25,951 nt of DNA, taken from positions 1 through 25,951 of IMG/VR virus record IMGVR_UViG_3300025112_000159. One strand, written 5' to 3'. Shown in pieces: positions 6,787 through 23,977 of the stretch; within the stretch, counting starts at the first letter, position 1; every line of letters starts with the position of its first letter. The stretch is from a virus. A model generated the notes under the pieces. The model had not been told where the DNA came from, did no database searches, and saw only the letters and a program-made list of their open reading frames with translations. Made by a program: the position numbers and the translations under genes.

Positions 6787-7242
6787 CTACCCCTTCTTGT
6801 CTACTGCAGCTTGCACGTCGGCCTTGGTGACAGAGCCGTCTTTGCCGGTGCCGTGGATCGCTGTCGGATCGAGCTCATGCTCGACTGCCAGCTCCATGGC
6901 CGCGGGGGATATCCTAAACTCTTCCTCTGGAGGAGCGGGAGGAGCGGTGCTCAGACAGTCCACGGCCTGCTGATGGGTGACCAGGCCCAGCTCGATCAGG
7001 AGGTCGAGCATCAGCTTCTTGTTCTGGGCCGACAGGAGGTCTGTGGGTTCGGCGTAGCGCACCGGAGAGATCCCGTGCGGGTTCCCTGTGTCCAGCAGCT
7101 CATCTCGGAGCGCAGAGGTCTCAACCTCGATGACGCGCCGGTTCTTGTAGCCAGGGTTCGGGGGAAAATGCAGGCGCCCAAGCACCCGGTGTAGAATCGA
7201 AACATTGCCCTCGTTTCCCAGATATTCGACCAGATATGACAT
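6787..7242 (-). CDS. Virion-region protein with C-terminal E3-binding (peripheral subunit-binding) domain
   Basis: 151 residues from the ATG at 7242, which has the ribosome site GAGAGGAA just upstream; a longer frame to 7296 would run through a hairpin and lacks a good site. Residues 1-100 are unrecognised, with a helical LMLDLLIELGLVTHQQAVDCL stretch at about 77-97. After a Pro/Glu linker, residues 110-150 read SPAAMELAVEHELDP, then GTGKDGSVTKADV. This is the classic pattern of the small E3-binding domain of 2-oxoacid dehydrogenase acyltransferases (SPAxxxLAxExgxD, GTGkdGxitkxDV). I see no lipoyl or catalytic domain. It lies between the capsid and adaptor genes, so a head-completion or scaffolding-contact role is likely. 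The domain call is strong; its role is inference. Confidence 0.78.
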   Translation of the reverse strand: MSYLVEYLGNEGNVSILHRVLGRLHFPPNPGYKNRRVIEVETSALRDELLDTGNPHGISPVRYAEPTDLLSAQNKKLMLDLLIELGLVTHQQAVDCLSTAPPAPPEEEFRISPAAMELAVEHELDPTAIHGTGKDGSVTKADVQAAVDKKG

Positions 7243-7266
7243 GGGTTCCTCTCTGTGGTGGTAGAA

Positions 7267-7294
7267 GAGGGAGGAGGCAAACGCCCCCTCCCTC
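7267..7294 (-). terminator. Terminator-like perfect 12-bp hairpin after the capsid gene pair
   Basis: On the minus strand GAGGGAGGGGGC, loop GTTT, then GCCTCCTCCCTC form a 12-base-pair stem with one G-U pair. It is followed by TCTTCT rather than a clean T run. It lies between the capsid/secreted-protein pair and the next gene, where phages often place a leaky terminator that keeps capsid mRNA high relative to downstream tail genes. Confidence 0.6.
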
Positions 7295-7325
7295 AAACAG
7301 CTTGCCCTACGGGCCCGCCAGATCT

Positions 7326-7940
7326 CTATCGAGGATAGATTCTGGTGATCACCGCAGAGATATATACCGAGTCTCCCGCCGAGGAGTCAGGGTCAAACCA
7401 CAGCCTGAAAAACCGGCTGTTGCGAACCATCATCTGATCCGCATTGGGTGACACTTCCATCCCTGCGGCGGTAGTCGGCGCAAGCAGCGTGTCTACCCCC
7501 CCAGAGGTGTTGAGCAGCACCCACATGGTGGAATCTCGACCGGTGTTTTCAGACTGGCCCACCGCAGAACCCGCGGTGACGTCGACGCTGTAGGTCGTCG
7601 CAAGCGAGTGCCAGGCCCCGGTTTTGATGTTCTGGTTCGACACTTGGCCGTAGTAAGTGAGATCCTGATCGTCGTTCTTCGAGCGACCAATGATCTCGAC
7701 GGAGACCTGTGAAGCCCCAGCGATTTCGATACCGTAGGTGGTATCGTTCAACGTGCCGGCCACCATGGTGTCGACGCGGTTCGCCGTGCCGGGGATAGAC
7801 CCCGAGGCGAACCAGATCATCGTGTCGGTCTTCGCAGACCCCACGTTGTTGCCGAAGTTGACGGGCCTCAACTCCTGCGCGTCGACAAGGCCAGCGATCA
7901 GAAACAGGGCCAGAAGGCCAGAAACAAAGCGTTTCAACAT
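7326..7940 (-). CDS. Exported protein with Sec signal peptide, encoded directly after the capsid gene
   Basis: 204 residues. Residues 1-21 are a textbook signal peptide: MLKRF, a hydrophobic core GLLALFLIAGL, then VDA with likely cleavage before QE. The mature part (about 183 residues) is rich in Ser, Thr, Asp and Gly with alternating beta-strand patterns, and ends RFFRLWFDPDSSAGDSV then VITRIYPR. It has no cysteines in the mature part and no membrane segment. A strong ribosome site (GGGGAGG) precedes the ATG. The gene follows the capsid gene by 15 bases and is followed by a terminator-like hairpin, so it should be expressed at capsid-like levels. Family unknown. It may be a periplasmic or outer-surface factor, or a virion protein with a processed leader. 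Confidence 0.82.
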   Translation of the reverse strand: MLKRFVSGLLALFLIAGLVDAQELRPVNFGNNVGSAKTDTMIWFASGSIPGTANRVDTMVAGTLNDTTYGIEIAGASQVSVEIIGRSKNDDQDLTYYGQVSNQNIKTGAWHSLATTYSVDVTAGSAVGQSENTGRDSTMWVLLNTSGGVDTLLAPTTAAGMEVSPNADQMMVRNSRFFRLWFDPDSSAGDSVYISAVITRIYPR

Positions 7941-11202: not shown

Positions 11203-13364
11203 CCTGTTGCTCCTCGATCAGCTGCTGTGACACGACCTTCAGGTTGCTGTGGGGGCCTCATGCGAGCGCCTCCTCCGGGTGGCTCAGGCGGTGGCCCGCC
11301 GCCGCCGGGCGGTGGGCCTGCTCCCGGTGGAGGTCCGCCCCCACCAGGGGGGCCACCGCCTCCAGGGCCCCCGCCGGGTGGCTGAACTGCAGCCATGGAG
11401 CGGATCTGTTGGATCATCTCCGGCAAGGACATGCCGGTTTCCTTCTGCAGCTGGTTGATCTGGGCCATGGCCTGGCCCTGCGCGTCGGACTCGTCGAGGG
11501 CCGCGGCGAGTTCCTCGTAGTTGGGCACGTCCAGCAGCTGCGCGGCCCACTTGAGGATCCCCATGCCGGCGGCGGGGCCCATGTACTGCATCATGTTGGT
11601 GGCCAGCTCCGCCCGCTCTGCCTTCTTGGCCTCCTTGCCGGAGTCCAACGACAGGCGCAGATCGAACTTGCGGATCCCCTCGTCGTTGAGGGGGAGCATG
11701 ATCCCCTTCTCCCCTCGCGGGGTCTCCATGGCCTGACCGTTGTCGGTCTTTCTCAGGCTGTGGGTGTCTTGGATCATCTGCTCGTCGTTGCCCATGAAGA
11801 TCGTGTAGGGCTGCTGCTGGGTGGAGCCGGCCTTGGGCGTGATGCGAGCGAACCGCTTGCCGCGGAAAAACTGCATCATCACAGAGATACGCAGCATCGT
11901 GGCCTGCCTCATGGCGCTCTCGACGTTCTTTCGGGGGATCGTAGAGAACAGATCAGCGTCGGCCTGCAGGGCGCGTACGGCCTTGCCTGACAGCTCATAC
12001 TGAGGCGCTGCGCGATTGACGTCAGCGACCGTCGACATCTTGTCCTTGAGGCTGGTCATAAACTCGATGCCCTGCTGCCACAGCTGGGCGGACTGCGCTG
12101 CCGATCCAACGAACTGCGGCGGGGCCTGGCCGGGGTAGCCGAAGATTTTCTGCAGCGGCTTGCGGCCCAGGTTGTCGAGCTTGCCCTCTTCGCCCTTGGG
12201 CATCATGCCCTTGTTCACCCAGAGGAACTGGCTGTTTTGGATGAACATCGACTCCGCGTAGCGGCTCATCATCTGATTGATGAAGTCCTGATACCCCATC
12301 AGATACTCCACCTCGCCGTGCGGGTGGGTCTGGTCTGGGTCTTGGGAGCCTGAGTAGAACGCGAAGGGATACTCGCCGTGGCCCTTCTCGCGGGTGTCGT
12401 AGATCGACCGCTTCGTCACCTGGGCGACGTGATCGTTGATGACTACGGTGGTGGTGAGCTCGTGCTCTTTGATCTTGTCTGGCTCGAGCATGTTCTGCTC
12501 TTGCTCAGTCAGCCGGGTCTTGGCGTCCGCCTCGGTGCCTGGGCGCCGGATGGGATCGCCCTCCGGGTCCTTGGGGTCAGGATCGGAAACCATCCACACG
12601 TCCCCGTTGGGCAGCAGCAGGCGGTTCTCCCAGGTGAAGGTCTTCTCCCAGAACTCCTGCCGGTAGGCCTTCTTGTGTCTGGCGTTGGGGACGGACTGCG
12701 AGTCAGCGCGGGGCTGCAGGAGGGTGCGGTAGTTCTCGAAGCGGGCGGTCTGGAAGCCCTGAGTGAAGAACCCAGGCACGTCTGCTTTGATCTCGTCCTT
12801 GAGGTCTGGGAACTCTTTCTCGAGGTGCTCAACGAGCATGGGTGGGTATTTGGCCATCCAAGACACGTTCCGCAGCTGCACGGAGTCGCCGTCGTCCGCC
12901 CAGGCGAAGTGCATGGGGTCCAACGCTTTGGAGACCACCATGCCCTGTCCGCCCTCCTCGTCGGCAGCGAACCCCACTTCCTCGATCCCCAGGCCCACGG
13001 TGTACATGTGCATCATGCACTTCCGGCGGACCTCGAGCACGGAGTCGTATTCCTGCCCCGTCCAGTCATCTGACCAGCGCAGGAGATCCTTCCAGACAGA
13101 GGAAATCTGCCAGTCCTCTGGGCCCCGGCCCTGCGTTTCGATGATGGGATCGGCCTCAATCAGCCGGGCGACCAGATTCTCGATGTCGCGCCGGATGACG
13201 TTGTGCGTCAGCCGGAGCTGGTTGCGCCCCTGGTCGAGGTTGACGTCGTCCCACTGCCGGGAGTGCATGTAGCGGCGGGACTTCTGGCCAATACGCCCCC
13301 ACTCCGCCATCTCATGGACGGCGTCGTGGAGCATCTGGGAATACTCTTTTGGGTCTTTGGCCAT
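11199..13364 (-). CDS. Portal protein (P22-like class)
   Basis: 721 residues, close to the 725 of P22 portal. The N-terminal segment RRYMHSRQWDDVN (31-42), then RLTHNVIRRDIENLVARL, is the usual opening of podovirus portals (small helix, xQW motif, conserved Asn/Arg before a helix). A long central wing and stem follow, with the helical segments LMGYQDFINQMMSRYAES and NQLQKETGMSLPEMIQQI. Residues 662-699 are an almost pure Pro/Gly tract of unusual composition, then a basic tail. Portals form the dodecameric DNA channel at one capsid vertex and bind the terminase. The ATG follows directly on the upstream TAG. Confidence 0.85.
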   Translation of the reverse strand: MAKDPKEYSQMLHDAVHEMAEWGRIGQKSRRYMHSRQWDDVNLDQGRNQLRLTHNVIRRDIENLVARLIEADPIIETQGRGPEDWQISSVWKDLLRWSDDWTGQEYDSVLEVRRKCMMHMYTVGLGIEEVGFAADEEGGQGMVVSKALDPMHFAWADDGDSVQLRNVSWMAKYPPMLVEHLEKEFPDLKDEIKADVPGFFTQGFQTARFENYRTLLQPRADSQSVPNARHKKAYRQEFWEKTFTWENRLLLPNGDVWMVSDPDPKDPEGDPIRRPGTEADAKTRLTEQEQNMLEPDKIKEHELTTTVVINDHVAQVTKRSIYDTREKGHGEYPFAFYSGSQDPDQTHPHGEVEYLMGYQDFINQMMSRYAESMFIQNSQFLWVNKGMMPKGEEGKLDNLGRKPLQKIFGYPGQAPPQFVGSAAQSAQLWQQGIEFMTSLKDKMSTVADVNRAAPQYELSGKAVRALQADADLFSTIPRKNVESAMRQATMLRISVMMQFFRGKRFARITPKAGSTQQQPYTIFMGNDEQMIQDTHSLRKTDNGQAMETPRGEKGIMLPLNDEGIRKFDLRLSLDSGKEAKKAERAELATNMMQYMGPAAGMGILKWAAQLLDVPNYEELAAALDESDAQGQAMAQINQLQKETGMSLPEMIQQIRSMAAVQPPGGGPGGGGPPGGGGPPPGAGPPPGGGGPPPEPPGGGARMRPPQQPEGRVTAADRGATG

Positions 13365-13670
13365 CTACCGGCGCCTCTTTGCTGCACTGCGGGCTGAACT
13401 GCGCTTATTCTTCCGGGGGCCAGCTCGCTTGCCGCTGCCCCGTCGCTGTGATTTGCGCTTCTCTACGTCCCGCTCTCGCGTCTGGGCATCGACGCCCAGA
13501 TACCGCTGATCGTCAGTAGCATCAAGGGACGGGCGCTGCTCTGGGGGATCCCCCAGAGCGATGCGGCGAACTTGGTCCGCGCCGGAGATGTAGCCATACT
13601 TCTCCCGTAGGCCAGAGCGGATCTTCTTCTGGGCATTCTTTAGCTTCCTCGCTGTGTATCGCTTTGCCAT
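13365..13670 (-). CDS. Small, very basic nucleic-acid-binding-like protein (paralogue A)
   Basis: 101 residues, more than 30% Lys/Arg. The N-terminal part (KRYTARKLKNAQKKIRSG) precedes an acidic-basic core (LDATDDQRYLGVDAQTRE) and a Lys/Arg tail (KRAGPRKNKRSSARSAAKRR). The core plus tail is nearly identical to the neighbouring upstream gene, from a 136-base duplication. The ATG shares a base with that gene's TGA (TGATG), and the portal ATG follows the stop at once. Such charge suggests DNA or RNA binding or an internal head protein. No family is recognised. Confidence 0.75.
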   Translation of the reverse strand: MAKRYTARKLKNAQKKIRSGLREKYGYISGADQVRRIALGDPPEQRPSLDATDDQRYLGVDAQTRERDVEKRKSQRRGSGKRAGPRKNKRSSARSAAKRRR

Positions 13671-13841
13671 CAGATCCTCCGTCCGGCCCTCGTCGAGCTG
13701 CGGCAGGCTGAACTGCGCTTCTTTTTTCGGGGGCCAGCTCGCTTGCCGCTGCCTCGTCGCTGTGATTTGCGCTTCTCTACGTCCCGCTCTCGCGTCTGAG
13801 AATCGACCCCCAGGTACCGCTGGTCGTCGGTGGCATCAAGG
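13392..13841 (-). repeat. 136-bp direct repeat shared by two adjacent basic-protein genes
   Basis: Copies at 13392-13527 and 13706-13841, offset 314 bases, differ at scattered positions. They start at ggctgaactgcgctt and end at catcaagg. The boundary coincides with the codons for LDATDDQ, so the duplication covers the C-terminal module of each protein. Confidence 0.92.
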
Positions 13842-13952: not shown

Positions 13953-14001
13953 AAAAAAGAGCGACCTCGACGGGCCAGAGCTCGACCCGTCAAAATCGCT
14001 C
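13953..14001 (-). terminator. Intrinsic terminator separating the accessory block from the structural operon
   Basis: On the minus strand the two-part stem GAGCGA...TCGCTC (outer) and GACGGG...CCCGTC (inner) is followed directly by TTTTTTGTG. It lies 90 bases after the Pal-like gene stop. This is the clearest rho-independent terminator in the window. Genes after it need their own promoter, somewhere in 13859-13950, or antitermination. Confidence 0.85.
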
Positions 14002-14091: not shown

Positions 14092-14619
14092 TTACTGCAC
14101 TACGACTTCTGCCCTTCTGTCGGCCTTGAGGCCGGCGCCGGTTGTCTTGTCCGCGCCAAAGGACAGCGTGATGATCTGCTCCTCATTCACCCCGGAGCGC
14201 ACCAGATAGTCGCGTACAGCTGCAGCGCGGCGGCTGGCCAGCAGGGCGTTGGTGATCCGCGATCCCCGCCGGTCAGCGTGGCCTGTGACGTGAACGTAAA
14301 GGTCAGGGTTGTCCATCAGGAACTCGGCCTGCTCGTTAAGGGCAGGGATCTGATCGTACCGGATGTTGTGCTGGCTGGTGTAGAAGAAGACAGGGCCCCA
14401 GCGCCAGGAAGGGCCCTCGTCCATCGTGGTCGTGAACGGCGAGGTGGTCGTCGCGGCTCCGACATATTCTGTGGGGGGCTCGTAGTGGACCGCCGGCTGG
14501 GCCACTTCCTTGGTGGATCCGCAGCCCGCGACCAGGGCGAAGACAATGCCGCCGAAGATGAGGATGGCCATGCCGACAATACCACCGAAGAACAGCTGCT
14601 GCAGCCTATGGATCCTCAT
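14092..14619 (-). CDS. Pal/OmpA-like peptidoglycan-binding lipoprotein
   Basis: 175 residues. A hydrophobic segment at 10-31 ends in the lipobox V-A-G-C33, so the mature protein is probably a lipoprotein. A Thr/Ser/Pro linker leads to an OmpA-C domain at about 75-175. It shows VHVTGHADRRGS, N, then SRRAAAVRDYLVRSGV, then ITLSFGADK and DRRAEVVV. These are the family's peptidoglycan-binding Asp and Arg regions. The host Pal protein has this layout and tethers outer membrane to cell wall. The gene overlaps the HNH gene by ATGA and is last before the terminator. The N-terminal stretch before the lipobox is longer than in most lipoproteins, so an uncleaved inner-membrane anchor is the alternative. 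Confidence 0.82.
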   Translation of the reverse strand: MRIHRLQQLFFGGIVGMAILIFGGIVFALVAGCGSTKEVAQPAVHYEPPTEYVGAATTTSPFTTTMDEGPSWRWGPVFFYTSQHNIRYDQIPALNEQAEFLMDNPDLYVHVTGHADRRGSRITNALLASRRAAAVRDYLVRSGVNEEQIITLSFGADKTTGAGLKADRRAEVVVQ

Positions 14620-14936
14620 ATCAGATCCTCCATGTGCGCTGGTCTGGGCAATTCATCGGCCTCGATCATGCGCTTGTATTCAGCGTGGATTTTGGGGAGA
14701 GAACAGGCAAACCACCTACAGATCGCTTCGCGCCACTTGAACCAGAACTCCGGTCTCTCATGCGATTCCATGTGGTGCTCATGGCAAAACGGAATGAGAA
14801 AGTAGTCCGAACCGCCAGCACCGCGTGAGCGCAGATGCGCTCGGTCTGGCGTCCTACCACAAACCAGACAGCCTTCCCCGCACCAGAGGGGGTTCTGGAC
14901 AATCCAGTGATAGAACGCTTCATCGACGATCCTCAT
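14616..14936 (-). CDS. HNH endonuclease-like protein (DUF968/NinG/Ref-type)
   Basis: 106 residues. A zinc-binding HNH core is plain: C23-x2-C26, then DRAH34 (catalytic-type His), SRGAGGSDY, then C51-HEHH and H59. The pattern CxxC, AH, GaGGsDy, PxCxxHHxExH is that of small phage HNH proteins related to DUF968 and recombination-linked nucleases. It may act in genome processing or packaging; many phages carry an HNH protein near the terminase. Translation is coupled to the Pal-like gene by ATGA. There is no intron or other sign that it is a free homing gene. Confidence 0.78.
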   Translation of the reverse strand: MRIVDEAFYHWIVQNPLWCGEGCLVCGRTPDRAHLRSRGAGGSDYFLIPFCHEHHMESHERPEFWFKWREAICRWFACSLPKIHAEYKRMIEADELPRPAHMEDLI

Positions 14937-14939
14937 TTG

Positions 14940-15728
14940 CTACAGCTTCCAGCCGATACCGATCTCCGTCGACTGCTTCAGCTGCCAGTCATCGCTACTT
15001 CGCTCATCGCGAAACGCGGCCAGCTCCGCCCTCAATACGATCAGCTTCGTAAGCTGGAAGCGCAGCGCCGTGTCTGTTCGTATCACCCAGGTGCGCCCGG
15101 AGGTCTTGAAGAACTTGACCTTGGAGTCCATCTGGGCCGTATCAGAGATCTTGTAGTCCAGCTCCGTTACGGATTCAAACCCGAAGTCCGTCGACATGCT
15201 GCTGCCGCCAGAGTAGTTGTTGAAGTCCCTGGTCAGCACATGCCTGAACGAGGCGCCAGCGCGTGTCTCCACCTCCGCAATGCCGAAGGTCAGACCCTTT
15301 CCAACGCCCGCGGCCTCGTTCAAATAAGCAGGATCCCACAGGTCTGATATCCTACGCTGTGGCGCATATCGGTGTCCTGCAGTGAGTTGTGTCCGCAGCC
15401 CGGCTGACACATACGGCTTGACCCAGCTGTCGGTGTTGATCAGGTAGGTTGTGGCCACCTTGAATAGATCGTCTGTCTTGCGCGGATCTCGAGACCCCTG
15501 TTGCGTCTGGCCGTAGTCGAGTCCATAGCGCCATGTCCATGTGTGGCCGGGGGTCTTCTCGATGCTGATGCCGGTGATGTCGAACTCCCATGAGAACGAG
15601 TCCTCTCCGCCCCTCGACCAGTCCTTCATTTTGACCTGACTGCCTGTCAGGTCCGTAGTGAGCTTGTGCGACCAGTCTGCCTGGGCCGCTACCGTCAGTG
15701 CAAGTATAAGCAGGACAACGCGCTTCAT
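14940..15728 (-). CDS. Outer-membrane beta-barrel-like protein, DUF3078 type
   Basis: 262 residues from the ATG at 15728, which overlaps the upstream stop (ATGA); an in-frame ATG five codons earlier is less likely. Residues 1-17 are a signal peptide (MKRVVLLILALTVAAQA, cleaved before DW). The body follows the DUF3078 pattern of Bacteroidota outer-membrane proteins: WSRGGED (37-43), WTWRYGLDYGQTQ, RKTDD (83-87), YVSAGLRTQLTAG (106-118) and ISDLWDPAYL (127-136). Alternating polar and aromatic strands run to the C-terminus (IGIGWKL). It is expected in the outer membrane of the infected cell. Function in the phage is unknown. Host-surface masking against superinfection and help with release are both possible. 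Confidence 0.76.
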   Translation of the reverse strand: MKRVVLLILALTVAAQADWSHKLTTDLTGSQVKMKDWSRGGEDSFSWEFDITGISIEKTPGHTWTWRYGLDYGQTQQGSRDPRKTDDLFKVATTYLINTDSWVKPYVSAGLRTQLTAGHRYAPQRRISDLWDPAYLNEAAGVGKGLTFGIAEVETRAGASFRHVLTRDFNNYSGGSSMSTDFGFESVTELDYKISDTAQMDSKVKFFKTSGRTWVIRTDTALRFQLTKLIVLRAELAAFRDERSSDDWQLKQSTEIGIGWKL

Positions 15729-16057
15729 CGTTTTCGCTCCCAAGCCATCGACGATCCCATGAGAGAGGACACGGAACTGTCGGCTTCAAATACGAATGTG
15801 TCACCATTTGCCGGAATGGTCAACCTCCAGAGCCTCCGGGTGTCCCCCGGATCGGCGCCTGTGGCCGTCGTGAGTAGTTCTCGTATGTCCAACGGAGAGA
15901 ACTTGATACCGTAGGGGATTTGGTCCAGCTGGTGTGCCATGAAGACCGGGTCTCTCCGCGATCTGTGCATGACGGTGGCCTTTTTGTAGCCCTCCCATCC
16001 GCGGAATCCCAACCCTACGAGGATCAGGGCCAGCACCGCGAGGGCTCCCCACTTCAT
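15725..16057 (-). CDS. Membrane-anchored protein, periplasmic domain, unknown
   Basis: 110 residues from an ATG that overlaps the upstream stop as ATGA. Residues 4-20 (GALAVLALILVGLGFRG) form a single N-terminal membrane segment or uncleaved signal. The rest (IPYGIKFSPLDIREL, then DTRRLWRLTIPANGDTFVF) looks like a small mixed alpha/beta domain. It would sit in the inner membrane with the domain outside. It is directly followed by, and coupled to, the DUF3078-like gene, so a joint envelope role is likely. I recognise no family. Confidence 0.82.
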   Translation of the reverse strand: MKWGALAVLALILVGLGFRGWEGYKKATVMHRSRRDPVFMAHQLDQIPYGIKFSPLDIRELLTTATGADPGDTRRLWRLTIPANGDTFVFEADSSVSSLMGSSMAWERKR

Positions 16058-17019
16058 GTGGCCCACTCCAGGCCCACCGCCTTGCGGTAGCCGTCGAGGC
16101 CCTCCTCCTCGATGAGACCTCTGGTCTGCTGATCGCCGACCATCCAGGCCACATCGCACAGATACTGCTCGTCCTGCTCCTCCTGCTCTTCCTCGCCCTT
16201 GGTCATCTCGCTGGACTCGTAGCCGTCGGAGATCTCCTGCTCCCGCAGGATCTCCGACCAGTCCCAGAACATGAGGGCGCCCACCGCCATGGCCAGGGCC
16301 CTGTGTGGGGTCCGGTATTGGCCGAAGCGCCAGGTCTCGCAGGAGGGGTGGATGATGAGCCGCTTCCGGGCGAATAGAGCGTCGACGGTCGAGAAGTCCC
16401 ACTCGTCGTTGCCGGCGTAGGGCGCCTCGATCGGGGAGCAGATCCTCTCGCGGGACTCGAAGAAGGGAAATCTTTTCCGTATCTGCCTGTCAGACATGGA
16501 ATCTTCTTCCGGGTAGTGGACGATCCCCCACTGCATCTTCTGGATCTCAGTCAGAAACTGGCCGTTTTTGAAGTCCAGATAGATCCGGTCCAGCTTGTAG
16601 ATGTCCTTCAGAGCGGATGTGGCCTCGAAGAGGTCTGGGTGCAGGGACAGCGAGGGGTTGTCCCCCAGCGTGACCCCCTCGTCCAGCAGGAAGAAGTCCC
16701 GCTCCTTGGGGTCGAAGGTGTCGTCGTAGCACTCTCCCACCACAGCGCAGTAGCCTGGCTGCAGGCCCTTTTTCGGGGTGATCGCCGCCCAGATCCGGGT
16801 GTAGAGGGAGTACGAGCCTCCCCGGACCATGGGGTCTACCTGTTCCCCCGGCTTGGGCAGGAACAATTTTCCGTTGGGCAGGACTCCAAACCGGGTATCG
16901 GGGTAGCGCTTGAGGGCTCTGGGGTTGCGGTCGATGACCTCCCAGAGCTCCGGGTCGTTACGCTTCCGCACCTGGGCGTAGGATATCCACTTCCCATCGG
17001 GCAGCTGGATGGCGTTCAA
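16054..17019 (-). CDS. Unknown 321-residue protein, possibly RNase H/terminase-nuclease-like fold
   Basis: Starts with TTG at 17019, overlapping the upstream TGA. The centre alternates strands and helices: YCAVVGECYDDTFDPKERDF (about 90-109), then ALKDIYKLDRIYLDFKNG, then HRALAMAVGALMFWDWSEI near residue 250. This order of an acidic strand, a second acidic strand (YLDF) and a late helix recalls the nuclease half of large terminases. However, the acidic triad is not clearly conserved, so this is only a suggestion. A Glu/Gln-rich stretch (EEEQEEQDEQ) follows. It lies three small genes downstream of the large terminase. Gene call is certain, function is not. Confidence 0.85.
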   Translation of the reverse strand: MNAIQLPDGKWISYAQVRKRNDPELWEVIDRNPRALKRYPDTRFGVLPNGKLFLPKPGEQVDPMVRGGSYSLYTRIWAAITPKKGLQPGYCAVVGECYDDTFDPKERDFFLLDEGVTLGDNPSLSLHPDLFEATSALKDIYKLDRIYLDFKNGQFLTEIQKMQWGIVHYPEEDSMSDRQIRKRFPFFESRERICSPIEAPYAGNDEWDFSTVDALFARKRLIIHPSCETWRFGQYRTPHRALAMAVGALMFWDWSEILREQEISDGYESSEMTKGEEEQEEQDEQYLCDVAWMVGDQQTRGLIEEEGLDGYRKAVGLEWAT

Positions 17020-17333
17020 TAGTCCGCCTCGATCTCAATGTTTCGGAGCATCTCGGCCTTGTCCTCTTCGCGCATGTCTGCCTCGAGCGCGGCCCGGCCC
17101 TTCTGGGTGATGTGATACTCCCGCACCGCGAACATCTGCTCTCCCTCAGTGACACAACGGATCATCCCCTTGGCAGTCAAGGCGTTGACTGTGGCGGAGG
17201 AGGTGCCTTTGTGCCGGCGCTTGGCCAGGAGATCTACGACGAAACCGCCGTCGTCGGCCTCGTAGAGCAGCTTAATCTGCTTCCGGCTCAGTTTGCCGGT
17301 TGCGCTGGGCTTGTAGATGTTTCGTCGTCCCAT
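17016..17333 (-). CDS. Winged-helix DNA-binding-like protein
   Basis: 105 residues. Residues about 15-80 read like a winged helix: KQIKLLYEADDGGFVVDLL, then KGTSSATVNALTAKGMI (recognition-helix pattern) and VREYHITQKGRAAL as the wing and closing helix, as in MarR-like or replication-initiation folds. The ATG at 17333 has GGAGGG upstream and lies 46 bases inside the preceding gene, a longer overlap than usual here. It may regulate the late genes or take part in packaging. No exact family. Confidence 0.72.
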   Translation of the reverse strand: MGRRNIYKPSATGKLSRKQIKLLYEADDGGFVVDLLAKRRHKGTSSATVNALTAKGMIRCVTEGEQMFAVREYHITQKGRAALEADMREEDKAEMLRNIEIEADY

Positions 17334-17494
17334 GTGCCCTCCAGAATCAACACGGTGCCGCTCTTGAACAGCTTGACCGGCACTACGTTCGTGAAATGCG
17401 GATCCTTGGCTACGTCCTTGAGGAACGCCTCGAGTTCTGGCGCCGTGAACTTGTCGATGCTCTGTACGCGGTACGTCCTCCGTAAGTCACTCAA
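17288..17494 (-). CDS. Small conserved-looking protein, unknown
   Basis: 68 residues. I chose the TTG at 17494 because it overlaps the upstream TGA (TTGA), the same coupling seen elsewhere here. The sequence has a helix (APELEAFLKDVAKD) and a strand pair (VVPVKLFKSGTVLILEG), and ends in a polar tail. A longer frame to 17842 is a shadow of the preceding genes. No family recognised. Confidence 0.68.
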   Translation of the reverse strand: MSDLRRTYRVQSIDKFTAPELEAFLKDVAKDPHFTNVVPVKLFKSGTVLILEGTWDDETSTSPAQPAN

Positions 17495-17778
17495 TGGTTC
17501 ACCTCTACGGCTTGGTGGGTGTTGCCGGCGGCGACGTTGAGCTTGGCGTCTCTCAGCGTCTGGCCCCGGTCGAGGAAGATGATGGCCGGCTCGTCGTTGA
17601 CGAAGGTGATGGCCAGGCGCGGATCGCCGGCGTCGTCGACCAGAATGAACTCCTGGGTCTCGACCGGCCCCCGAGGCACACTGCCCACAGGGAGGTCTCT
17701 GTCCTGAGCCAGGACCATACCGGCGAATACCGCGAGGCACACCACGGCTGCGGATACACAGATTCTGTAGAGCATCAT
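17491..17778 (-). CDS. Small exported protein with Sec signal peptide
   Basis: 95 residues. Residues 1-24 are a signal peptide (hydrophobic VSAAVVCLAVFAGMVLA, cleavage after A24 before QD). The mature 70 residues carry EFILVDDAGDPRLAITFVND and AIIFLDRGQTLRDAKL. This beta-strand pattern recalls repeats in secreted bacterial proteins (strand, D-x-G-x-P-R, strand). It has no membrane segment or cysteines after cleavage. The ATG overlaps the terminase stop (ATGA). It starts the envelope-directed block. Confidence 0.8.
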   Translation of the reverse strand: MMLYRICVSAAVVCLAVFAGMVLAQDRDLPVGSVPRGPVETQEFILVDDAGDPRLAITFVNDEPAIIFLDRGQTLRDAKLNVAAGNTHQAVEVNH

Positions 17779-19439
17779 ACCCTCTTCGACATGCGTCCCA
17801 CGTCGGAATGATCATCGTCGTCGTAGTGGCGATACTCGCCACTGGTCTTGTAGGTCATGGCCATGATGGCGATGCCCAGCGCGAAGACGTAGTCATCATG
17901 GGTGCCCGGCTTTGCCTCGGCGACCCGCGGACCTGGGACAGAGTGAAAGGACAACAACTCGAGGATCACATCGTCAGATGGACAGGAGATGTCCTCGTCG
18001 CGAATTGCCGCAGCGAGGGTTTCGACCAGCATGGGCCGGGTGACGTAGGAGGTACACCAGCCGATCCGGTCTCCCGGCATACGGATCTCGCGATCGATCG
18101 GCAGGCGGTGGTAGAAGTTGTGGTAGAGGTGCCGGGCCTGGTTCTGGACGGCGTCCCCGATCCCGTTCACCTCGATGGCCAGCAGGGCGTTGTTGTAGAG
18201 TCTCCCGACAGAGGCCAGCTGCGAGGAGTAGACGTCGGCGTCCATCCAGCCGTGGATGGTGGCTACGACGCGCACGGGGTAGACGCTGGCGTCGATTACG
18301 ACCGCTGCTGAGTAGTCCCCGTCTGGGGAGGAGCCGGCGCAATCGGCGCCGATCACGTAGTTGTGGGTTGGGTCTGGCATCTCCCAGAGGTTGACCATGT
18401 CCCCCGGCTGCATCTGTGTGACCACTTCGACCTGAGACATGGCCAGCGGGAACATGCCCACAGCCATGGGATCTGAGGTATGCTGCCGCCAGTTGCTCAA
18501 GATTTGGACGTTGAACCTGGGGGTGCCGGCGGAGATGAACGCTTCTTCAGGAGTAGACGGGTATTCCTGATGAAACAACAGGACGTCGCCGCCGCAGTTG
18601 TTGGCGATCGCCCATCTCCGCCATGCCATCTGGTCCATGTTGCACTTGAACTGCTCGACCAGATCCTGCTCTTCCCCCTCGTACATGTTGTAGCGCGAGT
18701 CCTTGCCGAACCCTTCCATGCTGATCCGCTTGGGGTCGAGGGAGTATTCTGGCATCGAGAACCACGAATAGAAGCAGGGCTCCCAGGCAGATTCCCCTCG
18801 TTCCGCGGCGTCCCACTGCTCGTTGAACCAGTCGCCGGCGCCCGCCGCCGTCGACTCCATGACCCCGAAAGTATTCTTCCGGCCCGGCAGCGCCTGGGCC
18901 AGAGAGAGGAAGGTGGTCGCTGGGTCGTCCCATTTGGCGACCTCAGACAGGTGGGCGCACTGCACGGTGAGAGAGGTGCCGGCGTATTTGCGCTTGGCGG
19001 TGTCGACTACGACCTGTGAGTTGGAGGGCATCTGGAACTTCAGGCCCTTGGAGTGCATGTGCCTGGTGGGCTTGTGGCCAATGTGGTGGTCGTAGAAGGT
19101 GGTGAACATCTCGTAAAGCCGGGTTGAGCTTTTCGGTGAATCAGCCAAAATCAGGGCGTCTTGGTTGTCGACATGGTTGATCCAGTCGTAGACCACAGAC
19201 TCTGTCCATGTGCTGCAGCCGATCTGCCGGGCCTTCAGGATGATCAGCCTGACCGGGATCTGGGCCCGCATCCCGTCATGGAAGCGGCGGTTCAGATCCT
19301 TCTGGACGGAGTTGTAGCGCAGCGGGACCACGACCCCGTTCTTGTCCTTGATCTTCAGCGTCTTCTCGCACCACGCCTGGGAGTGATGCGGCGACAGGTG
19401 CCTACCGGCGGCGCTGAGGTTGGGGAGGGCGAGTGTCAA
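17775..19439 (-). CDS. terL: Terminase large subunit (ATPase-nuclease)
   Basis: 554 residues from a TTG that overlaps the methyltransferase stop. ATPase half: Walker A-like KARQIGCST (69-77), Walker B-like VQCAHLSE (159-166), and coupling motif ESTA (195-198). Nuclease half, RNase H-like: VIGADCAG with D366, AIEVNG with E423, and GTHDDYVFAL with D515/D516. All key residues are present, so it should be an active packaging motor that cuts concatemers and drives DNA into the portal. The order methyltransferase, TerL, then accessory genes before the portal is unusual; TerL and portal are often adjacent. Confidence 0.95.
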   Translation of the reverse strand: MTLALPNLSAAGRHLSPHHSQAWCEKTLKIKDKNGVVVPLRYNSVQKDLNRRFHDGMRAQIPVRLIILKARQIGCSTWTESVVYDWINHVDNQDALILADSPKSSTRLYEMFTTFYDHHIGHKPTRHMHSKGLKFQMPSNSQVVVDTAKRKYAGTSLTVQCAHLSEVAKWDDPATTFLSLAQALPGRKNTFGVMESTAAGAGDWFNEQWDAAERGESAWEPCFYSWFSMPEYSLDPKRISMEGFGKDSRYNMYEGEEQDLVEQFKCNMDQMAWRRWAIANNCGGDVLLFHQEYPSTPEEAFISAGTPRFNVQILSNWRQHTSDPMAVGMFPLAMSQVEVVTQMQPGDMVNLWEMPDPTHNYVIGADCAGSSPDGDYSAAVVIDASVYPVRVVATIHGWMDADVYSSQLASVGRLYNNALLAIEVNGIGDAVQNQARHLYHNFYHRLPIDREIRMPGDRIGWCTSYVTRPMLVETLAAAIRDEDISCPSDDVILELLSFHSVPGPRVAEAKPGTHDDYVFALGIAIMAMTYKTSGEYRHYDDDDHSDVGRMSKRV

Positions 19440-20107
19440 TTCTGCACAGCCTTCTTTTCCCCTCTGTCCTTCTTTTCCCCTCTGTCCTTCAATTTCGCCT
19501 CCCGCTTGAACCGTTCACTCGACAGCTCGATGTCCATCGCCTTCAGCCTCATCCTCGCATTTTTCACTGTCTGCTCGTTGATTTCGATCCCGATCGCATG
19601 GAAGCCCATCTCGTGGGCGGTACACACGCTGCTTGCCGTTCCGCAGTATGGATCGAGAAACGTCTTCCCTTCGCTGGGCAGAGAGGCGCCGAGGCATTCT
19701 TGGATAACCTCCGTGGGTACGGGTAGGTAGGTGGCGTCTGATTCGATCAGTCCGCCGGCGAGCCAGTTGGGCATCCAGTAGTCAGACTTCCAGTAGTGCT
19801 CCTGGCCCCGCTTCTTGAACAGCCAGATATCGTGCATCACCTCGAGTGGACCCCTGGCGATGTAGGCCTTGTCGACGTCGGATTCGGTCATACACCAGCT
19901 GCAGTGGGTGATCAGATCCCAGCCGGCGAAGGCGAACGCCTCCGGGTGCATCACCCAGAGCAGGGCGTCGTCCTTGGCCACCTTGTAGAGCTTCTGGGTG
20001 ACAGCATACAGGTCGTCGGTGTCTATCTCATACGGCGGCGAGGTCCAGCAAACGTCGAAGACCGGCAGCTTCACATGCGAGGCGCCCCCCCAGATTATCT
20101 CACTCAT
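19436..20107 (-). CDS. DNA methyltransferase, beta class (N6-adenine or N4-cytosine)
   Basis: 223 residues. Catalytic motif IV is TSPPY (22-26), and SAM-binding motif I comes later as FLDPYCGTAS (150-159), followed by GFHAIGIEIN. The order catalytic then SAM motif is that of beta-class enzymes. SPPY suits N4-cytosine or N6-adenine transfer. Between the motifs there are only about 120 residues, so a separate target-recognition domain is small or missing. The C-terminus is a Lys/Arg-rich tail containing KDRGEK twice. ATGA-coupled to the upstream gene and overlapping terL. A role in protecting phage DNA or marking it for packaging is inference. Confidence 0.9.
   Translation of the reverse strand: MSEIIWGGASHVKLPVFDVCWTSPPYEIDTDDLYAVTQKLYKVAKDDALLWVMHPEAFAFAGWDLITHCSWCMTESDVDKAYIARGPLEVMHDIWLFKKRGQEHYWKSDYWMPNWLAGGLIESDATYLPVPTEVIQECLGASLPSEGKTFLDPYCGTASSVCTAHEMGFHAIGIEINEQTVKNARMRLKAMDIELSSERFKREAKLKDRGEKKDRGEKKAVQN
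19451..19490 (-). repeat. 18-bp tandem repeat at the methyltransferase C-terminus
   Basis: cttcttttcccctctgtc occurs twice in direct succession plus four bases of a third copy. The unit is six codons (KDRGEK), so copy-number changes keep the frame. Confidence 0.93.
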
Positions 20108-20971: not shown

Positions 20972-21068
20972 AGATCACCCAGGCTATAAGGCCCCAAAAC
21001 GCCAGACAGAAGGCCCCTGCCAGAGTGAGGATCAGTGTGCCTCCCCAAAACCGCGTCCGCCGGCTCAT
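20964..21068 (-). CDS. 34-residue single-pass membrane peptide after the endolysin
   Basis: Starts ATGA-coupled to the endolysin stop (21065-21068). The N-terminus is basic (SRRTR), then about 26 hydrophobic residues (TLILTLAGAFCLAFWGLIAW...). This is the size and shape of a holin-like or regulatory lysis peptide. Too short for family assignment. Confidence 0.68.
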   Translation of the reverse strand: MSRRTRFWGGTLILTLAGAFCLAFWGLIAWVIFG

Positions 21069-21580
21069 TTGAGGGCTTCAGCCTCCTTTGAGCCCCAGGT
21101 AACCAGCTCGCCTGGGCGCAGATCGAGGTGGATGGAGGGGGTGATTTCCTTGCTGTAGTCGCCCTTGTAGACTCCTACACCGGTGAAGCCGATCTCGATG
21201 GCTCTCTCTGCCACCTGAATGTGGGCCATGAACCACCGCTCGTAGAGCTTGGCCTTGTTGCCGCGGACGCGGGTAACTCGAGGCGAATCGATCTTGACCA
21301 CCGAGTCTGTGGCGAAGTCGTCGTTCTGGTCGTGGGGGACTCGCCGCAGGATGTGCTGAGACTTGGGTGCCCCGCCAACCTTGCGGTTGTAGGCCGGGCA
21401 CCTGAACCCAGAGGTGTCGGTGATGCTGGCGTCCCACCAGTCCCGCAGGGCCTGCTTGAGCTCGATGTGGTGCCGAAACCGTTCGGTGGCCGGGCGGGCG
21501 GACCCGCAACAGGGACACACCAGTCTGGTGCCGTCACCGAGCCAGTCGAAGTTATGGGATTGGGGTATGATCAGCGCCAC
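21065..21580 (-). CDS. Endolysin, peptidase M15-type (L-Ala-D-Glu / D-Ala-D-Ala peptidase)
   Basis: 171 residues from a GTG at 21580, preceded by AGGAGG at good spacing; the frame stays open upstream to 21643 (see findings). Zinc-site pattern of the M15_3 group: SGFRCPAYNRKVGG (57-70), SQH76, a later Asp (D92 is the likely ligand), and IHLDLRP with H151 and D153. The segment between H76 and the Asp is longer than in most relatives. N-terminal CPCC (22-25) may bind metal. It should cut peptide cross-links of peptidoglycan at lysis. Flanking membrane peptides make this the lysis cassette. Confidence 0.85.
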   Translation of the reverse strand: MALIIPQSHNFDWLGDGTRLVCPCCGSARPATERFRHHIELKQALRDWWDASITDTSGFRCPAYNRKVGGAPKSQHILRRVPHDQNDDFATDSVVKIDSPRVTRVRGNKAKLYERWFMAHIQVAERAIEIGFTGVGVYKGDYSKEITPSIHLDLRPGELVTWGSKEAEALK

Positions 21581-21669
21581 GATCTCTTCCTCCTGCGATG
21601 AGTGATCCCCCCCCATATAACCAAAGCCCACACCGCGCAACAACCGATGAGTACTGCGGCTTTGATCAT
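21571..21669 (-). CDS. 32-residue membrane peptide overlapping the endolysin start
   Basis: Starts ATGA-coupled at 21669 and ends 10 bases inside the endolysin gene. MIKAAVLIGCCAVWALVIWGG is a single membrane segment and the tail is strongly basic (HRRRKRSWR). Its codons include a run of eight G residues (plus-strand C at 21607-21614). It could be a holin-like or signal-anchor peptide. The endolysin ribosome site lies inside this gene. Confidence 0.65.
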   Translation of the reverse strand: MIKAAVLIGCCAVWALVIWGGITHRRRKRSWR

Positions 21670-21752
21670 AAGGGGGAATCCACGGGGGAGAGCATCGTCG
21701 GGGACTCGATGCCCCTAAAGTGCTCTCTCAGTAGGTGATCCGTCAAGGTCAT
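21666..21752 (-). CDS. 28-residue coupled mini-ORF, unknown
   Basis: ATG overlaps the stop of the 64-residue gene (ATGA), and its own stop overlaps the next ATG (TTATGA). The peptide (start MTLTDHLLREHF) is soluble-looking. Exact coupling on both sides is the only support. It may be a real peptide or a ribosome relay. Confidence 0.5.
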   Translation of the reverse strand: MTLTDHLLREHFRGIESPTMLSPVDSPL

Positions 21753-21943
21753 TTGTCCAACCTCCTTACCAGTTTCACGTTCAACCATGATGTGGCCACC
21801 GCCAGGGCGCCACCCATGGAATAGGCAGCAGCCCGCAGCCACCACGGGTCATCGATCAGCTGCTCGAGCTGCAGCACGGCCTCCAGCTTGAGCAATCCGA
21901 TCACCTGGGCCAGCGTCATCGACGCGACCATGGCTCGCTTCAT
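21749..21943 (-). CDS. 64-residue membrane protein, holin candidate
   Basis: The ATG at 21943 is ATGA-coupled to the preceding gene; a longer frame to 22015 is not needed. An amphipathic N-terminal half (LLKLEAVLQLEQLIDDPWW) leads to one likely membrane segment (AAAYSMGGALAVATSWL) and a basic end (KLVRRLDK). Size, charge layout and place before the endolysin fit a small holin, but no family match can be shown. Confidence 0.65.
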   Translation of the reverse strand: MKRAMVASMTLAQVIGLLKLEAVLQLEQLIDDPWWLRAAAYSMGGALAVATSWLNVKLVRRLDK

Positions 21944-22077
21944 CTGCCGTCGCGTATGCTGCTGGTGTCGCGACCGGTCGCCTCGATCACCCAGACCACT
22001 ACCGCCAGGACACACATCAGCGCCACGGCCACTGCGACCAGAGGGAGCAGGAAGGCAATGCCGAGTACCTCTCTCAT
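21940..22077 (-). CDS. 45-residue single-pass membrane peptide
   Basis: ATGA-coupled on both sides. Residues 4-31 are strongly hydrophobic (VLGIAFLLPLVAVAVALM...), followed by a charged C-terminus (GRDTSSIRDGR). Holin, antiholin or spanin-like function is possible from its place in the lysis region. Starting at the upstream in-frame ATG at 22149 would add residues overlapping a real gene. Confidence 0.68.
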   Translation of the reverse strand: MREVLGIAFLLPLVAVAVALMCVLAVVVWVIEATGRDTSSIRDGR

Positions 22078-23924: not shown

Positions 23925-23977
23925 GGCCGTTTCAAAGCGGGTTTCAAAAGCCGTTTCAAACTGGAAAAATTATTCAT
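23921..23977 (-). CDS. 18-residue basic mini-ORF with LKR repeats
   Basis: ATGA-coupled on both sides. The peptide (start MNNFSS) contains LKR, LLKP and ALKR in a four-residue rhythm encoded by the 12-base repeat. It could be an amphipathic peptide or only a coupling leader. Confidence 0.4.
   Translation of the reverse strand: MNNFSSLKRLLKPALKRP
23929..23960. repeat. Three GTTTCAAA repeats at exact 12-base spacing
   Basis: GTTTCAAA occurs at 23929, 23941 and 23953 with four-base spacers, ending five bases before the ATG of the 87-residue gene. Regular near-helical-turn spacing suggests iterons or regulator sites, or simply the codon repeat of the mini-ORF. Confidence 0.75.

Follow-up and report, generated by a model that had tools for sequence, protein, structure and literature searches.

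A terL–portal gene block of a metagenomic tailed phage encodes a predicted DUF3078 outer-membrane barrel and a Pal-like lipoprotein

Phages are known to encode outer-membrane barrels and lipoproteins, among them Cor-type exclusion lipoproteins and phage porins, and further phage envelope proteins are Llp of T5, Lom and Bor of lambda and the PA-2 Lc porin. Two-component spanins of the Rz/Rz1 type, which have a separated architecture in T4 and B40-8, consist of a type II inner-membrane protein and an outer-membrane lipoprotein. Few phage genomes contain lipoprotein genes, and recognizable spanins are missing in 91 of 677 phages with Gram-negative hosts (PMC6139136). The spanin genes of B40-8 lie about 1 kb apart, more than 120 i-spanins have no coiled coil, the combined periplasmic length of spanins ranges from 62 to 300 residues, and an OMP was suggested as a possible o-spanin (PMC6139136). 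In bacteria, Pal and other OmpA-domain lipoproteins (PDB 4g4v, 1oap and 2hqs) combine a lipobox with a C-terminal OmpA domain that carries a peptidoglycan-binding motif.

Envelope proteins encoded by phages are a known class, and the DUF3078/Pal-like combination described here is unusual within it. The locus resembles phage exclusion proteins and porins in its outer-membrane gene products but differs in that several envelope genes stand together, coupled to terL. To our knowledge, the DUF3078 and Pal domains are unrelated to Cor, Llp, Lom, Bor and the Lc porin, and we know of no spanin with an OmpA domain. As in two-component spanins, a type II inner-membrane protein and an outer-membrane lipoprotein are encoded in one run, are probably late gene products and have a combined periplasmic length of about 230 residues, inside the 62–300 range (PMC6139136). 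Unlike in those spanins, the lipoprotein contains a folded OmpA domain, the two genes are 1.1 kb apart and away from the endolysin gene, and a barrel and other proteins are encoded with them.

The analyzed window is the 25,951-nt stretch at positions 1 to 25,951 of the IMG/VR record IMGVR_UViG_3300025112_000159. Its terL-to-portal interval is occupied by an eight-gene minus-strand block (17778–14092). The block, its surroundings and the upstream lysis genes contain the following features.

21940–22077, minus strand: 45-aa single-TM ORF, holin candidate by topology only
21749–21943, minus strand: 64-aa single-TM ORF, holin candidate by topology only
21065–21616, minus strand: M15_3 peptidase endolysin (PF08291, E=1e-10), upstream of the block and co-directional with it
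17775–19439, minus strand: terL (PF17289, phrog_2), translationally coupled to the block
17491–17778, minus strand: secr, 95-aa secreted protein with a signal peptide ending in VLA before QD; its start overlaps the terL stop by 4 nt
17288–17494, minus strand: 67/68-aa small, cytoplasmic-looking protein with a TTG start and no family match
17016–17333, minus strand: putative winged-helix regulator (PadR/HTH_34-like; weak match, E=0.04, below cut-off)
16054–17019, minus strand: 321-aa orphan (g321), no homologue found
15725–16057, minus strand: memb, 110-aa protein with an N-terminal hydrophobic anchor and a periplasmic domain (type II topology), i-spanin-like by topology only
14940–15728, minus strand: DUF3078 outer-membrane protein with a signal peptide and about 12 long predicted strands (PF11276, AF2, Foldseek, homologues)
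14616–14936, minus strand: HNH-endonuclease-like protein (phrog_22514, E=1.7e-5)
14092–14619, minus strand: Pal-like OmpA-domain lipoprotein with lipobox C33 (PF00691, PDB Pal, lipobox scan)
13959–14001, minus strand: intrinsic terminator that closes the run

All eight ORFs, the couplings and the terminator proposed in a sequence-only reading of the window were recovered, with 4-nt overlaps at nearly every junction, and the block stands as a coupled run with its own terminator. In order from terL, the junctions are overlaps of 4, 4, 46, 4, 4 and 4 nt, a 3-nt gap and a 4-nt overlap. The terminator (14001–13959) has 19 pairs and a U-tract (−35.3 kcal/mol, z=−6.2) and is by a wide margin the strongest hairpin of the window. 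The third-codon-position GC of the block genes (0.64–0.87) is like that of the other genes of the phage. The coupling to terL suggests that the block is expressed late, and its genes are probably co-expressed at that stage. In the interval between the terminator and the portal gene, two small basic ORFs contain a 139-bp direct repeat (13389–13527 and 13703–13841; 91%), and a segment of the second ORF is similar to part of a large protein (11397–11501) of a relative, L008.

Exported proteins are encoded by four of the eight block genes and by one of the 19 other genes counted (p=0.017), a difference that shrinks to 4/8 against 3/19 (p=0.09) when the two holin-like small membrane ORFs are included among the exported genes. 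The proposed number of four exported genes in the block holds, and a further exported ORF lies outside it. This ORF (7326–7940, minus strand), which encodes a 204-aa protein with a signal peptide, sits behind or ahead of no block gene but inside the structural operon, where it separates the major capsid gene from the structural genes that follow; it is 46% identical to L008 4891–5457. Near it, a 169-aa protein (6787–7296, minus strand), 59% conserved in L008, has a C-terminal E3-binding (peripheral subunit-binding) domain (PF02817, E=1.3e-9), which is unusual for a phage structural region.

The terL–portal spacing was compared in 80 IMG/VR TerL relatives and three isolates, with a portal detectable in 70. 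In the 69 co-linear relatives, the distance ranges from −163 to 764 bp (median about 5 bp), versus 4,410 bp in the window; L014, with a reversed terL/portal order, was left out of the range. Fifty whole records of more distant or partial relatives contained no OmpA-domain or DUF3078 match over the cut-off. Because the junction is empty in the relatives and the families are absent from their records, the block is, on these comparisons, a lineage-specific insertion at an otherwise tight terL–portal junction. Scans of IMG/VR with the portal, MCP and Pal-like proteins retrieved only the siblings of the window (3300025131_001051, 3300002518_003023 and 3300025131_006896; 99.7–99.8% identity) and one mid-distance relative, L008 (portal 70%, MCP 92%). 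The block is present in 3300025131_001051 without a single difference, and small indels separate the two sequences elsewhere, at 19450–19467 (18 nt, near the end of a methyltransferase gene) and 23949–23977 (about 12 nt, near 23.95 kb). The expected co-occurrence of the gene set in related phages was thus observed in a 99.7% identical sibling but not in the 50 distant or partial records; it is visible only in this near-identical sibling because the L008 contig edge falls inside the portal gene, short of the block. The phage portal had no match in GTDB genomes. Elsewhere in the window, a tandem 230-bp repeat (655–883 and 886–1114; 92% identical) was seen through cross-matches with L006 and L007. 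Beyond the left end of the window, a sibling contig contains an ORF of at least 2,125 aa that runs off the contig end (L151:1–6375, minus strand) and probably encodes an ejection or internal virion protein.

The DUF3078 protein matches PF11276 with an E-value of 2.3e-12 (47.6 bits versus a gathering cut-off of 25). A motif search of GTDB genomes provided 19 cellular relatives for alignment, from KSB1, Calditrichota, Ignavibacteriota, Aminicenantes, Latescibacteria, Marinimicrobia and a Gemmatimonadaceae-labelled MAG, among others; the family also occurs in Bacteroides. The phage protein aligns with these relatives over its full length, signal peptide included, and retains the W..GGE.SF.W motif. 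An AlphaFold2 model based on this alignment (mean pLDDT 84.5) contains about twelve long strands, and its Foldseek matches in the PDB are the outer-membrane barrels EstA, FapF, NalP and OmpG (TM about 0.4–0.5). Among viral models, the matches are a DUF481 protein of an uncultured phage (TM 0.60) and several other phage-encoded barrels, which are widespread in BFVD. The protein is thus predicted to be an outer-membrane β-barrel with a signal peptide, and the structure check that could have pointed to a virion protein favored the envelope instead. It is closest to cellular proteins from Gemmatimonadaceae-labelled MAGs (identity about 36–37% at most), with which it groups in a tree (99/100) on a long branch of 2.44 changes per site. 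The phage protein differs from the cellular family in its viral encoding and its long branch but shares the full-length alignment, the motif and the predicted barrel. The grouping is a lead to the phage host, short of proof. No second viral DUF3078 was found in INPHARED by tblastn, in IMG/VR contigs by motif or in PHROGs, and literature searches on DUF3078 yielded incidental mentions only. Phage-encoded outer-membrane barrels as such are already known; a phage DUF3078 seems to be new.

The Pal-like protein matches PF00691 (OmpA) above the cut-off (E=3.1e-16), and its closest PDB entries are Pal structures (4g4v and 1oap). It has a V-A-G-C lipobox with the cysteine at residue 33, and the residues D116 and R130/131 of the peptidoglycan-binding motif are kept. 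A home-made pattern (lipobox, positive N-terminus and hydrophobic stretch), used in place of a trained predictor, identified this gene as the sole lipobox ORF in six frames of the whole window. The maximal KD of the N-terminal stretch is 2.6–2.8, and the long hydrophobic stretch ahead of C33 could be an uncleaved anchor. The earlier designation as a Pal-like lipoprotein is borne out by the lipobox, the domain and the binding residues, but not in the sense of a Pal orthologue, since the virus-encoded protein scores 68.5 bits against the Pal equivalog TIGR02802, far below the cut-off of 125.35. In INPHARED, OmpA-domain matches to block genes were found in four records only, and the match in Pseudomonas phage Y1 lies in a record without annotation. 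A PADLOC search of the block for defense systems gave just a weak OmpA/MotB-domain (MotB/ZorB) match.

The signal peptide of secr has a maximal KD of 2.66, and the protein has no family match in Pfam, PHROGs or NCBIfam. The memb protein likewise has no family match, and its proposed membrane anchoring is consistent with the N-terminal hydrophobic segment, which is only modest (KD 1.69–2.0). The 321-aa orphan has no match in Pfam, PHROGs, NCBIfam or INPHARED (tblastn), and its single-sequence AF2 model (pLDDT 38) is uninformative; its origin as a duplicated TerL nuclease domain was considered and rejected (hhalign probability versus TerL 0.1%, no Pfam match). The envelope direction of four block proteins is well supported by homology, the predicted barrel and the lipobox, and sequence signals would place these proteins in the membranes or the periplasm in vivo. 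A single system that remodels all envelope layers exceeds the evidence, because the winged-helix, HNH and 67-aa products appear to be cytoplasmic and the 321-aa product is an orphan.

The endolysin and holin-like genes are located upstream of the block, and neither a lipoprotein nor a type II protein of the spanin kind is found beside them. This result bears out and sharpens the earlier remark on the absence of a visible standard spanin pair. The hairpins between these lysis genes and the terminator are all weak, and the lysis genes and the block plausibly form one transcription unit. Both components of a spanin pair, an outer-membrane lipoprotein and a type II inner-membrane protein, are encoded in the window by sequence signals only; they lie about 5–7 kb from the endolysin gene rather than beside the lysis cassette and 1.1 kb, with two genes in between, from each other rather than in tight linkage. 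The memb protein is the only convincing type II candidate near the Pal-like gene. By those signals, memb and the Pal-like lipoprotein are the only spanin-like pair in the window, atypical in OmpA domain, spacing and company. Since the available sequence does not cover the whole phage genome, a canonical spanin may be encoded beyond it.

Four readings of the block were weighed, and a contribution to breaking the outer membrane at lysis, in a non-canonical spanin role, ranks first as a tentative preference. In this P22-portal-type tailed phage, transcription of the late genes would continue through the block to its own terminator, and the block would deliver an outer-membrane barrel, a peptidoglycan-gripping outer-membrane lipoprotein, a periplasmic protein anchored in the inner membrane and a small periplasmic protein. 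Once the inner membrane and the wall had been opened by the holin candidates and the M15 endolysin, memb (15725–16057) and the OmpA-domain lipoprotein (14092–14619) would function as a separated spanin pair of non-canonical type or, alternatively, as Pal-displacing destabilizers of the outer membrane, which the DUF3078 barrel would weaken or perforate. This lysis role, for which the block proteins may co-operate, is favored by the single lipobox ORF with its one plausible type II partner nearby, by the co-directional endolysin and holin-like ORFs that have no adjoining spanin and only weak hairpins between them and the strong terminator, by the late expression that terL coupling suggests, by the retained Asp and Arg of the binding motif, and by the spanin precedents cited above (PMC6139136). 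It is weakened by the lack of a known spanin precedent for an OmpA domain, by the distance between memb and the lipoprotein, by the chance that the stretch ahead of C33 is an uncleaved anchor or that a canonical spanin lies beyond the available sequence, and by the winged-helix, HNH and 321-aa genes, which lysis does not explain; moreover, a wall-binding, membrane-anchored lipoprotein could stabilize the envelope instead of breaking it. A distinctly doubtful extension is a previously undescribed lysis module in which the classical spanin complex gives way to the lipoprotein, the inner-membrane anchor and a dedicated DUF3078 barrel.

The same barrel and lipoprotein might mask, replace or block a receptor or DNA entry, as in superinfection exclusion or surface remodeling. 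This possibility ranks second and is rather unlikely: the full-length homology of the barrel to cellular outer-membrane proteins, its grouping with one cellular lineage and the abundance of phage barrels in BFVD speak for it, but exclusion is less useful at the late stage suggested by terL coupling, a peptidoglycan-binding domain is unexpected in a receptor blocker, and no lysogeny genes were recognized among the window genes searched. The block proteins had no match to named exclusion families in PHROGs. Accumulation of unrelated host-derived genes at a site that tolerates them, possibly with the aid of the HNH gene and without a common mechanism, ranks third and is unlikely. Such a moron island accords with the empty junction in co-linear relatives (maximum 764 bp) and with the regulator, HNH and orphan genes interleaved among the exported ones. 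It also accords with the cellular DUF3078 neighborhoods examined, which have no Pal or memb partner and led us to reject movement of the block as one host cassette. The near-universal 4-nt overlaps, the exported half of the genes and the single terminator suggest co-selection instead. Least probable by far is that some exported-looking proteins are virion or ejection components; the block abuts the structural operon and the signal-peptide ORF 7326–7940 among the structural genes is conserved in L008, but the barrel model with its outer-membrane PDB matches, the lipobox and the homologous signal peptides point to export.

The locus provides concrete candidates that are open to testing. Its DUF3078 barrel is the first from a virus in the collections searched here, and the nearest homologues, in Gemmatimonadaceae-labelled MAGs, hint at a host among bacteria that are poorly cultured. 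With modest confidence, we infer that the most likely role of the block is to help disrupt or modify the outer membrane at a late stage of infection.
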